A DNA stretch of 64,000 bases from Rhodopseudomonas palustris HaA2 (lineage in GTDB: Bacteria > Pseudomonadota > Alphaproteobacteria > Rhizobiales > Xanthobacteraceae): contig NC_007778.1 in NCBI RefSeq assembly GCF_000013365.1, positions 2,232,001-2,296,000 on the forward strand, written 5' to 3'. Positions 21,020 to 60,991 of this stretch are shown one piece after another. A model generated the notes under the pieces. It was not told the origin of the DNA, searched no databases, and saw nothing but the letters and a program-made list of their open reading frames with translations. Every line of letters begins with the position of its first letter. The stretch's first letter is position 1. Made by a program: the position numbers and the translations under genes.

Positions 21020-21028
21020 ATTCAACAA

Positions 21029-21466
21029 GTATCAGTCGGCCTGTAAGCCGGGTTCTGGAGGGCACCGCTCGCCGTGAGGCGGAGCGATACGCGACGGCCA
21101 TTCCTCTGGGACGCTGTTTGCACAGCGCCTCGAGCAACCTACCCGGACGGCGGGTTTGACATCACCCTGCGGAGTTATCGCCCGAGAGCGAACTGTCCGC
21201 GATGCCGTCCCTATTCGGTTTTGCTCCCGGTGGGGTTTACCATGCCGTCTCCGTTGCCGGAGACGCGGTGCGCTCTTACCGCACCTTTTCACCCTTACCC
21301 CGCTTCGCCTTGCGGCTTCGCGGGGCGGTTCGGTCTCTGTGGCACTTTCCCTGGGGTCGCCCCCGCCGGACGTTATCCGGCACCGTATGTCGATGGAGCC
21401 CGGACTTTCCTCCCCCGCAGCCTTTCGGCCGGTGCGGGAGCGGCCGTCCGGCCGACTGACGGGCAA
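21029..21466 (-). ncRNA. rnpB: RNase P RNA (bacterial type A)
   Basis: Minus-strand RNA of about 438 nt, the catalytic subunit that trims tRNA 5' leaders. The conserved core GAGGAAAGTCCGGGCTCCA lies at 21412-21394, and GGTAGGTTGCTCGAG, AGAGGAATGG and GGGTGAAAAGGTGCGG(T) also match the family. The ends pair to form P1: TCAGTCGGCC near the 5' end (21459-21450) with GGCCGACTGA near the 3' end (21041-21032). Ends are estimated to within a few bases. Reading frames crossing it are shadows. Confidence 0.95.
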
Positions 21467-57640: not shown

Positions 57641-57674
57641 TCAGAACGTCTTCGCCATCAGAACGTCTTGGCCA
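57641..57674. repeat. 17-base tandem duplication at the 3' end of prmA
   Basis: TCAGAACGTCTTCGCCA is followed at once by TCAGAACGTCTTGGCCA (one mismatch). The second copy encodes the prmA C-terminus AKTF and stop; the first is an out-of-frame remnant of it just past the stop. Confidence 0.8.
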
Positions 57675-58548
57675 GCAGCAGGCTGCTCCAGCCCTCGATC
57701 ACGATCTGCCGGAGCAGCACGCAGCCGCGCGCGCGATAGGCCGCGATCACGCTCTGCGCCTGCGGCTGCAGCAGGCCGGACAGGATCACCAGCGCCGACG
57801 GCGCCAGATGCTCGGACATCGGCTGCGCCAGCGCGCGCAGCGGGTTGGCCAGAATATTCGCCAGCACCAGGTCGAACGGCGCATGGGCGGCGAAGGCCGG
57901 CGAGGCGAAGCCGGTGGCCCATTCGGCGTGCACCAGATTGCCGACGCCGTTGAGTCGCGCGTTCTCCCTGGCGACGGCGACCGACTGCCGGTCGATGTCG
58001 GTCGCCAGCACCGGCTGGCGCAGCGCCTTGGCGGCAGCGATCGCCAGCACGCCGGTGCCGGTGCCGAGGTCGAGCACGCTGCGCGGCGGGCCGGCGCGCA
58101 GCACCAGATCGAGCAGCGTCAGGCAGCCGCGGGTGGTGCCGTGATGGCCGGTGCCGAAGGCCAGCGCCGCCTCGATCTCGATACCGAGCTTGTTCGGCGG
58201 GATGCGGGCGCGGTCATGGCTGCCATGGACGATGAAGCGGCCGGCCGGGACGGGGACCAGCCCTTCGAGGCTGGCCGCCACCCAGTCCTTGGCCGCGATG
58301 GTCTCGACCGTCATGGCGGCCGAAGCGGCGTCGCCTGCCACCTGCGCGACCAGCGCGCGGATGCCGTCGAGATCCGGCCCCTCGCCGAAATGCAGGCTGA
58401 CCTCCCAGGCGCGATCCGGGCGCTCGAACGCCGCGATCGCCAGTTCGCCCTCGCCCAGTCTCTCGCCGAGCAGATCGGTCATCCGGCGCGCGGTGGCCTC
58501 GTCGCCGATCACGAAGCTGGCGCGGGTGGTGGGGGCGGGATCAGGCAT
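57658..58548 (-). CDS. prmA: Ribosomal protein L11 methyltransferase
   Basis: 296 residues, normal length. PrmA trimethylates several amino groups of ribosomal protein L11. SAM motif VLDLGTGTGVLAIAAAKALR, then ATDIDRQSVAVARENARLNG and the NxLANPL-type site in LVLANILANPLRALAQP; the upstream signature AFGTGHHGTTRGCL is also clear. Start at MPDPAPTTRASFV. Adjacent small genes are not related. Ends in the second unit of a tandem duplication. Confidence 0.94.
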   Translation of the reverse strand: MPDPAPTTRASFVIGDEATARRMTDLLGERLGEGELAIAAFERPDRAWEVSLHFGEGPDLDGIRALVAQVAGDAASAAMTVETIAAKDWVAASLEGLVPVPAGRFIVHGSHDRARIPPNKLGIEIEAALAFGTGHHGTTRGCLTLLDLVLRAGPPRSVLDLGTGTGVLAIAAAKALRQPVLATDIDRQSVAVARENARLNGVGNLVHAEWATGFASPAFAAHAPFDLVLANILANPLRALAQPMSEHLAPSALVILSGLLQPQAQSVIAAYRARGCVLLRQIVIEGWSSLLLAKTF

Positions 58549-58912
58549 GGCAGGTCCGATGGTTGGCAGGGGAGCGTCGTTGATGTGATGGACAACCCAA
58601 TGTCCCCAGTTTCTGCGCCCGAAAGGCAGGGTTTGTCCACGACTTACCCACAGGGTTGAAGATGCCGCTTGCGGTAGCTTGGGAGTGGTCACCGAGGATT
58701 TGGCCGTTAAATTGAGATACGGCTGGTAACCAAAAAGCCATATTTGTGTCCCAAGGGACACAGAGTGGGGATCGGCCTGACGATTCCTGCTTTAAGAACC
58801 CCCGGAGGAGTGGTGCGGACTGGGCCAATGACGTGCCCGTGTCCATGACTGCTGGATTGAGCATCGGCGCCCCCTCCGCGCTCGGCAAGAGCGCAACCCA
58901 ACGTGAGGGCGA
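58549..58912. other. Intergenic region prmA / small secreted protein
   Basis: 364 bases without a supported gene. It contains two DnaA-box-like motifs (58633-58652) and a short dyad TGTCCC-AAG-GGGACA at about 58746-58760. The start region of the following gene lies at its right end after GAGGGCGA. Confidence 0.5.
58633..58652. promoter_or_regulatory. Pair of DnaA-box-like motifs
   Basis: TTGTCCACG at 58633 and TTACCCACA at 58644, same orientation, 11 bases apart. Each differs from TTATCCACA at one or two places. They lie on the other side of the small secreted-protein gene from the larger array. Confidence 0.4.
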
Positions 58913-59224
58913 ATGATCAATACCGGCGAAGTAGTTTCATTTTCGAAGTCGACCCGCAGCGGCGGCATCTACGCGGTCGTTGCGGTGTGCCTAGCCGGCT
59001 CCTTTGCCGGTACGGTCGAAGCGGTCGCGGAACAGCAACCGTCGTACCAGCCGCTGTCCTTGCAGCAGCAGCAGTCCTTTGCACCGCCCGCGACCACCGT
59101 CGATTGCGCCACCGTCCGCTACAATGTCGCCGAACACGGCAAAGCCAAGTCGATCGCCTGGGCGGTCAAGAACGGCTATTCCTGGGCCCAGATCAACCAG
59201 GCGCGGCGGTGTCTGAAGGGTTGA
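58913..59224 (+). CDS. Small exported hypothetical protein
   Basis: 103 residues. A hydrophobic segment GGIYAVVAVCLAGSFAG acts as a signal peptide or anchor after a short N-terminal tail, followed by a Gln/Pro-rich linker (QQPSYQPLSLQQQQSFAPPA) and a small domain with two cysteines (VDCATVRYNVAEHGKAKSIA, WAQINQARRCLKG) that could form a disulfide. GAGGGCGA precedes the start. No family recognised. It is flanked by DnaA-box-like motifs on both sides. Confidence 0.65.
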   Translation: MINTGEVVSFSKSTRSGGIYAVVAVCLAGSFAGTVEAVAEQQPSYQPLSLQQQQSFAPPATTVDCATVRYNVAEHGKAKSIAWAVKNGYSWAQINQARRCLKG

Positions 59225-59334
59225 GGGCGCGAACTGCCCGTTCCCGAGCCGCGGATTGAGGCCCTCGTTCGCGGCAGCCATCCACAGCTTGTCCCCGCGA
59301 TTGAAACTGCGCTTCAACAGATTCGCGCACAGCT

Positions 59335-59389
59335 TTAACCACGACTTTTCCACAGCCTATCCACAGGCTTACGCACAGCTTTATCCACG
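59335..59389. promoter_or_regulatory. Array of five regularly spaced DnaA-box-like motifs
   Basis: Same-strand nonamers TTAACCACG (59335), TTTTCCACA (59346), CTATCCACA (59357), TTACGCACA (59369) and TTATCCACG (59381), spaced 11, 11, 12 and 12 bases. TTTTCCACA fits TTWTNCACA fully; the others have one or two differences. A weaker CCATCCACA lies at 59278 and TGTGAACAG (reverse) at 59393. The array lies at the 3' end of the oxidoreductase gene; the last box contains its stop codon. Confidence 0.55.
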
Positions 59390-60991
59390 CTTTGTGAACA
59401 GGCTGCGGTGATCGTTGAGGATCGCGGCTGCGGCGTTGTGGCCGGGGGCGCCGGTGACCCCGCCGCCGGGATGGGCGCCGCTACCGCAGTGGTAGAGGCC
59501 CTTCAGCGGCCCGCGGTAGTCGGCATGGCCGAGCATCGGCCGGGCCGAGAACAGCTGGTTCAGGCTCAGCGCGCCGTGAAAAATGTCGCCGCCGAGCAGG
59601 CCGAAATCGCGCTCGAGATCGAGCGGCGACAGGATCTGGCGGCCGAGCACGCTGGCGGCGAAGCCGGGGGCGTAGCGGTCGACGGTGGCGATCATTAGAT
59701 CGGCGACCTCGTCGCGGCGGTCGTCCCAGGACACGCCACCGGGCAGTTGCGGCGCGACGTGCTGGCAGAACAGGCTGGCGACGTGCCGGCCGGGCGGGGC
59801 CAGGGATTCGTCCAGCGTCGATGGGATCAGCATCTCGACCACCGGCTCGCGGCTCCAGCCGTGCGCGCGTGCGTCGCTCCAGGCGCGGTCCATGTAATCG
59901 AGGCCGGGGGCGATGATGATGCCGGCGGTGAGATGGTCGCCGGTGCCGGGCAGCGCCGTGAACGAGGGCAGGCCGGCCAACGCGACATTCATGCGGAAGG
60001 TGCCGGAGCCGTTCTTCCACGCGGTCATGCGGCGGTGGACATCCCCCGGCAGCGCATCCTTCGGTAGCAGCCTGGTGTAGAGCAGCTTCGGATTGACGTT
60101 GGCGGCGACGTATTTCGCCCGCAGGCCGCGGCCGTCGTCGAGCGTGACGCCGACCACCCGGTCCTTCTCGACCAGCACCTCGCGGACGCCGGCCGAGGTT
60201 TCGATCTCGGCACCGGCGGCGCGGGCTGCGGCGGCCATGGCTTGCGAAATCGCCCCCATCCCGCCGACCGCATGGCCCCAGACGCCCTTCCTGCCGTTCA
60301 CCTCGCCGAAGGCGTGGTGCAGCATGACGTAGGCGGAGCCGGCGGCGTAGGGGCTGGCGTAATTGCCGACGATGGCGTCGAAGCCGAACAGCGCCTTGAC
60401 CAGATCGTGCTCGAACCGCGCGTCGAGCATCTCACCGGCCGAGCAGGTGAACAGATCGAGCAGCAGCCGCTGCTGCTCCAGCGTCAGCGCGCGCAGCCGG
60501 TTGGCGGCGCCGAGCGCGGCGAGGCCCTCGCGAACGGCGCCGACGCCGAAGCGCTCGACCAGATTGGGCGGCGCCCGCAGCACGAAATGCCGCAGCACGT
60601 CGGCGATGGTCTCCAACTCGGCGGTGAAACCGTCGATCTTGCCGGCGTCGGGCTTGCTGAGATGCGCCACCGATCTGGCAGTGTATTTGGCCCCGGTCAG
60701 CAGATATTTGCCGTTCGGGTCGGGCAGGAAGTTCTGCGCCCGGCGCTCGACGATGCGCAGCCCGTGCTCGGCGAGCTTCAGGTCGGCGATCACCTTGGGG
60801 TTGAGCAGGCTGACGGTGTAGGCCGCGACCGAATTGCGGAAGCCGGGATGAAATTCCTGAGTCACCGCGGCGCCGCCGACCACGCTGCGGCGCTCGACGA
60901 CCTTCACCGTCAGCCCGGCCTGCGCCAGATAGGCGGCGCAGGTGAGGCCGTTGTGACCGGCGCCGATGATCAGCACGTCGGAATCGGACAT
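59381..60991 (-). CDS. FAD-dependent oxidoreductase, CrtI/PYROXD2-like
   Basis: 536 residues. The dinucleotide-binding motif is at the extreme N-terminus, SDVLIIGAGHNGLTCAAYLA, then VKVVERRSVVGGAAVTQEFH. The C-terminal FAD signature YHCGSGAHPGGGVTGAPGHN matches phytoene-desaturase-like and PYROXD2 proteins. The group is widespread in alphaproteobacteria and mostly uncharacterised; there is no carotenoid gene nearby, so a desaturase role is not implied. Start MSDSDVLIIGAG is clear; the longer open frame upstream is a shadow of the tandem-repeat region. Confidence 0.9.
   Translation of the reverse strand: MSDSDVLIIGAGHNGLTCAAYLAQAGLTVKVVERRSVVGGAAVTQEFHPGFRNSVAAYTVSLLNPKVIADLKLAEHGLRIVERRAQNFLPDPNGKYLLTGAKYTARSVAHLSKPDAGKIDGFTAELETIADVLRHFVLRAPPNLVERFGVGAVREGLAALGAANRLRALTLEQQRLLLDLFTCSAGEMLDARFEHDLVKALFGFDAIVGNYASPYAAGSAYVMLHHAFGEVNGRKGVWGHAVGGMGAISQAMAAAARAAGAEIETSAGVREVLVEKDRVVGVTLDDGRGLRAKYVAANVNPKLLYTRLLPKDALPGDVHRRMTAWKNGSGTFRMNVALAGLPSFTALPGTGDHLTAGIIIAPGLDYMDRAWSDARAHGWSREPVVEMLIPSTLDESLAPPGRHVASLFCQHVAPQLPGGVSWDDRRDEVADLMIATVDRYAPGFAASVLGRQILSPLDLERDFGLLGGDIFHGALSLNQLFSARPMLGHADYRGPLKGLYHCGSGAHPGGGVTGAPGHNAAAAILNDHRSLFTKRG

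Follow-up and report, generated by a model that had tools for sequence, protein, structure and literature searches.

A long one-way array of phased DnaA-box units outside the replication origin of Rhodopseudomonas palustris HaA2, a candidate DnaA control site

What is a regular row of DnaA-box-like nonamers doing far from dnaA and hemE? The question was raised by an earlier note on 64,000 nucleotides of the Rhodopseudomonas palustris HaA2 genome (the window, positions 2,232,001-2,296,000 of a single contig of 5,331,656 bp), which pointed out five such boxes in one orientation, one fitting TTWTNCACA exactly and the others missing by one or two bases. All five are found on the plus strand at the positions given in Table 1, and the exact fit, in box 2, is the only one among the array boxes of the window. 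As an extent, however, five boxes describe only the best half of the structure, which is an array of 11 units in one orientation, spaced at 11-12 bases over 125 bases. The array, its phasing, its orientation, its conservation, its near-uniqueness in the genome and its position outside the origin are matters of observation, and we read the interval as a single-locus, non-origin DnaA control site, with a probability of about 0.6.

Table 1. The array, its parts and the neighbouring genes, in window coordinates
Feature	Position	Strand	Remarks
Main array	59278..59402	+	11 degenerate DnaA-box units, consensus approximately TTWTCCACAG; score 82.5, E 1.6e-12
Five-box core	59335..59389	+	Best part of the 11-unit array; spacings 11, 11, 12, 12
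Box 1	59335	+	TTAACCACG, 2 mismatches to TTWTNCACA
Box 2	59346	+	TTTTCCACA, 0 mismatches to TTWTNCACA
Box 3	59357	+	CTATCCACA, 1 mismatch to TTWTNCACA
Box 4	59369	+	TTACGCACA, 1 mismatch to TTWTNCACA
Box 5	59381	+	TTATCCACG, 1 mismatch to TTWTNCACA
Second, weaker array piece	58600..58654	+	5 units; score 23.6, E 0.047
FAD-dependent oxidoreductase gene (anchor gene)	59381..60985	-	Amino_oxidase; CrtO/CrtI-like, below NCBIfam cut-offs
prmA (ribosomal protein L11 methyltransferase)	57658..58548	-	ATG start at 58548 chosen by eye; longest ORF begins at 58761
Small ORF	58913..59224	+	103 aa; no Pfam or NCBIfam match; separates the two array pieces

The earlier note had called the flank not strongly AT-rich, which holds for both sides of the main array (33% and 25% AT; window 33%), with the correction that the array itself is 48% AT. 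No AT-rich element borders it, the longest AT-only run within 200 bp being 6. The array is a non-coding cluster of DnaA boxes outside oriC, except that its last units enter the reading frame of the FAD-dependent oxidoreductase gene (FAD gene), whose stop codon lies inside the fifth box and whose last codons overlap the last units.

Past the small ORF follow prmA (-), an M24 aminopeptidase gene (-) and ligA (+). Of the 80 relatives, 7 have a homologue of the small ORF, each of them titled Rhodopseudomonas, and the C-terminal part of the ORF is conserved, by eye, around VDCATVRYxVxEHGxAKSIAWAxKNGYSWAQI. The piece at 58600-58654 is probably the other half of a longer ancestral array, since every one of the 7 relatives that carry the small ORF (L007-L013) shows at least two pieces and the array of Tardiphaga is unbroken (in L028, L034 and L039, a single 17-unit array that extends to the prmA match). 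In Bradyrhizobium loci, a small Flp/Fap pilin-like gene is often found on the far side of the array (for example in L020 and L024). A plasmid search returned a sole match, to the end of the FAD gene in Shinella. Elsewhere in the window, a bacterial class A RNase P RNA gene (Rfam RF00010) was seen at 21028-21459 on the minus strand.

Single boxes are unremarkable in the window, with 13 matches at no more than one mismatch versus 15.5 expected. Loose box pairs show no genome-wide excess either (YCCACAN{4,8}YCCACA at 3 places, versus 5 for the reversed control), so the signal is the array locus and not the motif. The triple lattice CACA-N7/8-CACA-N7/8-CACA occurs once in 5.33 Mb, at the array, and its reversed control pattern twice. 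We scored arrays with an 11-base unit matrix, chaining units at 11 or 12 bases (rarely 10 or 13). The top scores in 12 dinucleotide shuffles of the window were 12.1-19.4, far from the value for the main array, and the next-best score beyond the two array pieces was 18.5 in the 794 kb sampled from the same genome, window included. A profile model built from 40 of 55 eligible equal-spacing stretches of relatives, with the window left out, ranked the main array first and the 58600-58654 piece second; it gave no other place at E≤1 in the 5.33 Mb, where 150 of 553 first-look candidates were scored. Scores at array loci are partly circular, because both the scorer and the profile model were trained on such loci. 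The loose paired pattern, the box strand counts, the CACA triple lattice and the 11.35-bp lattice test are independent of both.

In order to look at conservation, we retrieved 80 loci by the FAD protein alone, disregarding boxes; they are the best 80 of 480 relatives and are titled Rhodopseudomonas, Bradyrhizobium, Tardiphaga, Afipia, some less-named MAGs and one Frankia. The nearest named relatives belong to Rhodopseudomonas, with FAD-gene proteins up to 92% identical. One locus (L072) was dropped because its sequence ends at the gene, leaving 79 for scoring. The earlier note had proposed checking for loss of the boxes and their spacing in close relatives; the array is retained in 79 of 79 testable relatives, always on the same strand and no more than 1.7 kb from the end of the FAD gene. 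The best array per relative scores 36-108 and has 4 to 23 units (15-18 units in 54 of the 79), and only one opposite-strand stretch in these loci reached the threshold of 20 (L084, 21.0). Counting boxes with at most one mismatch in the 373 bp at the FAD-gene 3' end of all 81 loci (the window and the 80), we found 177 on the plus strand versus 2 on the other. The shuffled control gave 26 +/- 5 on the window's plus strand.

The spacing is as regular as the orientation. Among box pairs 10-115 bp apart, 182 of 199 deviate by no more than 1.5 bp from a multiple of 11.355, where 28% would be expected, a period scan peaks at 11.35, and the mean pitch across the 79 loci is 11.35 bp. Pairs closer than 20 bp (boxes with at most one mismatch) are separated by 11 or 12 bp in 31 of 32 cases. 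Chain spacings were 11 (693 times), 12 (401), 10 (18) and 13 (7), with 10 and 13 penalised by the scorer. The earlier note had placed the boxes on one face of the helix. This is approximately true of neighbouring boxes, but with a pitch of 11.35 rather than 10.5 bp the row as a whole turns gradually about the helix axis.

A tandem repeat or minisatellite was also considered and is disfavoured: the spacing is a mixture of 11 and 12, and identity is 46.0% between adjacent units versus 46.4% between units of different loci. With neighbours resembling one another no more closely than units taken from separate loci, the array is not a recent repeat expansion. In 24 related pairs, positions of the box core (by our choice, unit positions 2 and 4-10) differ in 13.3% of cases and the other unit positions in 20.4%, with the lowest divergence at T4, C6 and A7 (8-10%). 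Counting against a DnaA site, the first two T positions vary like spacer (20.0% and 19.3%) and the optional 12th base differs little (11.5%, n = 87). Judged from these comparisons, it is the lattice and the middle of the box that appear to be under selection. Unit quality is uneven along the array: in the 36 loci with arrays reaching the FAD end, units 6-8 counted from there are poor, and the mean unit score drops to about 0 at index 7. As for other sites, GANTC is not enriched (27 versus 29.1 expected), TTAA was seen 9 times versus 5.2 expected, full CtrA sites numbered 0, and the strict IHF consensus WATCAANNNNTTR, searched in that strict form only, occurs once in the 79 arrays with 20 bp on either side.

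The densest DnaA-box array found in a genome could be expected at the origin. A main or second oriC at the array is nevertheless extremely improbable. The array, at 2.291 Mb, is 1.86 Mb away from parS (sites at 0.434 and 0.437 Mb), and dnaA (0.0007 Mb) and hemE (4.58 Mb) map elsewhere too, in agreement with the earlier statement that neither dnaA nor hemE is nearby. No AT-rich unwinding element accompanies the array. No array comparable to it was seen in the sampled dnaA, hemE and parS regions. In this genome hemE is itself far from parS.

Strand bias of GGGNAGGG, sampled over 794 kb in all, was used together with parS to place origin and terminus because GC skew was too weak. Outside the window, the samples from 1.40-3.06 Mb hold 27 forward and 0 reverse copies, the two stretches that flank the window contributing 10 to 0 (2.10-2.23 Mb) and 8 to 0 (2.30-2.51 Mb); inside the window the count is 11 to 2. 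The bias is thus unbroken across the array. It changes to 2 to 2 in 3.06-3.3 Mb and, in samples from the rest of the contig beyond 3.3 Mb, to 2 to 15, which fixes the terminus side at about 3.06-3.3 Mb. The samples from 0-1.4 Mb are mixed (16 to 17), so that the bias does not fix the origin side, a point in favour of an origin at the array. The origin is presumably near parS and the terminus near 3.1 Mb, so measured, the array is about 70% down one chromosome arm. A search with a dif-like pattern gave poor candidates only. For Oligotropha, PMC3091675 gives an Ori-Finder origin. As far as sequence can decide, the conserved phasing, the spacing and the unbroken bias give good support to the earlier preference for an accessory locus of DnaA binding over a full oriC.

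Another possibility is transcriptional control, in which DnaA or some other protein on the array would regulate prmA or the FAD gene in step with replication. Proximity speaks for it: the weaker piece is directly upstream of prmA in the window, and in 20 of 75 loci with prmA (for example in Tardiphaga) fewer than 200 bp and no ORF separate array and prmA, by a crude ORF choice. The main array, on the other hand, sits between converging 3' ends in the window, and converging ORFs were also found in a good part of the relatives. prmA is present at 75 of the 80 loci, and its match stands anywhere from -52 to 1655 bp away from the best array (median gap 416 bp, 10th-90th percentile 27-872). In 20 of these 75 loci the ORF picked between prmA and array was a plus-strand Flp-pilin-like gene (SDESGATAIEYGLIAAGIA...) that ends before the array, and 15 more picks were, by eye, antisense readings of the same kind of gene, again with the crude ORF choice. 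No sigma-70-like promoter was seen in 58500-59600, which is weak evidence with 0.1 expected. In other families, arrays lie beside unrelated genes. The variable gap and the differing neighbours make a promoter role for one fixed neighbour unlikely; the DnaA-controlled promoter that the earlier note had listed is disfavoured, and transcriptional control in general is decidedly unlikely.

The convergent position might instead suggest a role in RNA, as a terminator, a Rho-loading site or another structured part of the FAD-gene transcript at its 3' end. Rho-loading sites are pyrimidine-rich with a period of 11-13 nt, and the plus strand of the array has YC dinucleotides every 11-12 nt. The window array also folds somewhat better than its shuffles (z -2.3 and -2.5). 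Over 79 arrays, however, the mean folding z was -0.39 (plus strand) and -0.83 (minus strand) versus -0.60 for the control, and the locus has neither a terminator-like site nor an Rfam hit. Rho sites should be many, but one locus per genome was found, and what is conserved is a 9-mer that equals the DnaA box, not a loose C-richness. We regard an RNA role as very improbable.

A DnaA control site is suggested by the grammar of the array. The genome's DnaA carries the domain IV signature RDHTTVLHAVRKI, which we take to be the DnaA DNA-binding signature. Adjacent boxes of the array have the same orientation and are 2 or 3 bp apart. According to PMC11317965, E. coli DnaA binds box pairs with a 2- or 3-bp spacer in vivo, and a spacer shortened by one base is tolerated while one lengthened by one base causes a large drop in binding; the array would draw such a double box, with its spacing rule, out into a long row. 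In E. coli oriC, the arrays R5M-tau2-I1-I2 and C3-C2-I3-C1 likewise consist of same-direction, low-affinity boxes, there exactly 2 bp apart, which are filled cooperatively and successively from a strong box (PMC4451416). They differ from the present locus in forming two opposed arrays of four with an unwinding element and IHF/Fis sites, whereas the present row is single, has 11 units (relatives: up to 23) and lies off the origin with no AT-rich element. Direct repeats favour head-to-tail ATP-DnaA oligomers, as stated in PMC10316083. Since the array has the same grammar (gaps of 2-3 bp, one direction, few strong and many weak boxes), we read it as a place of DnaA assembly. Applied to 8-kb pieces of the E. 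coli genome (n = 3) around oriC, datA and DARS2, our scorer gave 23.0 at oriC, 24.4 and 22.2 at datA, and 32.1 and 24.0 at DARS2, versus 82.5 for the main array, with nothing else at or above 22; these hits include the double boxes from Table 1 of PMC11317965.

DnaA binding, oligomer formation and an effect on initiation are what we infer from this likeness. The 11 units (up to 23 in relatives), mostly low-affinity boxes in one direction 2-3 bp apart, would be anchored by one or a few boxes close to the consensus, from which DnaA, most likely ATP-DnaA, could load cooperatively on the double-stranded DNA as one head-to-tail oligomer. Such an oligomer would not open the DNA, because no unwinding element lies beside the array. 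It would store many DnaA molecules and probably alter their activity, by titration and/or DnaA-stimulated ATP hydrolysis as at datA or, alternatively, by nucleotide exchange as at DARS. As the array is located at about the middle of the origin-to-terminus distance or beyond it, passage of the fork would double its copy number, and DnaA availability would thereby be coupled to fork progress. We keep occupancy by DnaA conditional because the window has a single exact box and because of the weak units 6-8 described above.

Which of the known non-origin sites the array resembles bears on the direction of its effect. IHF is part of E. coli datA and DARS2, and the DARS core consists of three boxes in mixed orientation that need IHF/Fis. 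A mixed-orientation core of this kind is absent from the array, whose boxes are nearly all one-way (the 177 versus 2 above), and an IHF site within the cluster, a feature of datA, is in its strict form absent from nearly all arrays, occurring in 1 of 79. In Bacillus subtilis, several DnaA boxes outside oriC (DBCs) are thought to reduce free DnaA; multiple DnaA boxes outside oriC are also what is found here, but there the genome has multiple DBCs with dispersed boxes, and here one locus with a strict 11-12 bp lattice. The likeness to datA, the DnaA-ATP hydrolysis and titration locus of E. coli, lies in a non-origin DnaA-box cluster that the same scorer detects, although phasing at datA is much weaker by that scorer. 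DARS2 is detected as well and contains paired boxes (Table 1 of PMC11317965).

Position points in the other direction. Map positions in PMC4585315 put datA at about 0.20 of the arm, DARS2 at about 0.42 and DARS1 at about 0.64. Expressed relative to half the chromosome, the parS-to-array distance amounts to 0.52 in G042, 0.48 in G201, 0.56 in G223, 0.44 in L075 and 0.99 in L073, the values for L073 and L075 assuming that the parS contig is that of the locus record, which fits only 2 of 7 genomes in that set; in another set of 8 genomes, 3 had no parS match. Together with the window's genome, 5 of 6 measurable family genomes fall at 0.44-0.70, and L073 is near the terminus. Outside the family the fraction is 0.57 in G051, and 0.31 and 0.58 in G070. 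The array is thus well down the arm, as DARS1 and DARS2 are, and nearer to both than to datA. Counting against a control site altogether, its position is unlike that of datA and unlike that of the titration boxes of E. coli, which are enriched near oriC (PMC12371093). A DARS-like site, at which a DnaA oligomer would promote the exchange of ADP for ATP and stimulate initiation instead of damping it, appears unlikely on this anatomy, and a datA-like sink is favoured, the anatomy leaning towards datA and the mid-arm position towards DARS.

The same observations could be read without DnaA, if the array were an architectural or replication-fork element that merely shares CCACAG with the DnaA box (a site for another protein, for fork pausing or for a chromosome domain). 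The array is directional and, within the family, syntenic, and its boxes follow the fork direction in all five family genomes where the arm is unambiguous, though these share synteny and are not independent. In G051 and G070, from other families, however, the boxes face against the fork. Furthermore, TTWTCCACA with gaps of 2-3 bp is the known preference of E. coli DnaA, and the same lattice is built of TTATGCACA or TTATCAACA boxes in other lineages. An element independent of DnaA is in our view quite unlikely, and we return to the DnaA control site.

Arrays of this kind are also found outside the family. Searched over the order, the profile model matched in 40 of 249 genomes at E≤1e-3 (the own genome, 8 of the same family and 31 others), and over the class in 19 of 337 at E≤1e-4, the own genome included. 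The 209 and 318 genomes without a match to this family-trained model mean little, as filters were stricter and few candidates were scored per genome; own-family genomes without a match, if there are any, would be among 189 of the 249. At each of the 20 non-family places inspected, out of 35 from the order, homologues of the FAD gene, prmA, the aminopeptidase, ligA and the small ORF were all absent within about 4 kb on either side, and dnaA, hemE or parB family matches numbered 0 among 40 array-neighbour proteins scanned. Array neighbours there include ROK/DUF3830 (17 units), guaA with a NosD-like gene (14), ORFs with tetrapyrrole-methylase domains (11) and dnaB (5). With such unrelated neighbours, the lattice occurs at unrelated loci.

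Several of these arrays deserve separate description, with the proviso that unit counts in AT-richer genomes are inflated, the scorer having been calibrated for 67% GC. The 5-unit array of G162 (L167, 4011-4065) is directly beyond the 3' end of dnaB, the gene of the replicative helicase. In G303 (L186, 2643-3157) a same-strand array of 47 units adjoins an M23 peptidase gene, and in G522 (L185, 4751-5037) one of 26 units lies between an M23 peptidase gene and thyX; the two genomes represent one genus of another alphaproteobacterial family. A near-perfect 11-bp tandem of TTATGCACAGG occupies contig ends of G386, an alphaproteobacterial genome of 0.8 Mb (L175, 5-150, and L193, 4985-5157), and has the appearance of a newly expanded DnaA-box array at which the assembly breaks off. 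Two small, AT-richer genomes, G357 (L192, 1026-1352) and G487 (L191, 4955-5259), have adjoining or overlapping phased arrays on both strands, an arrangement closer to the half-arrays of E. coli oriC, and these may be origins. The array of L154, within a long ORF of a genome with 73% GC, may be false.

We suggest, tentatively and at somewhat less than even odds, that Alphaproteobacteria possess an undescribed class of element: long, one-way arrays of DnaA boxes phased at 11.35 bp (about 5 to 47 units by one scorer), syntenic within a family and at unrelated loci between families, on whose double-stranded DNA a DnaA filament could act as a replication timer or as a DnaA store that replaces datA and DARS. 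No published account of a comparable array in Alphaproteobacteria, Bradyrhizobium and Rhodopseudomonas among them, came up in our literature search, most subscription journals being outside its reach. DnaA sites away from the origin have been described before (datA, DARS and the DBCs of B. subtilis), but a one-way array this long and regular, with a lattice conserved across several genera, is new as far as we have searched.

To our knowledge, little is established about DnaA control without Dam and SeqA in slow-growing rhizobia and purple bacteria. The conserved lattice, in which the letters drift, shows which box spacings evolution tolerates, namely 11 and 12 bp and rarely 10 or 13. As a natural substrate longer than the arrays of E. 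coli oriC, the array could serve for testing DnaA filaments on double-stranded DNA, their pitch and their ATP turnover. If our reading is true, it would be a datA/DARS-type site for rhizobia and purple bacteria, conserved, deletable and built for DnaA polymerisation away from the origin.
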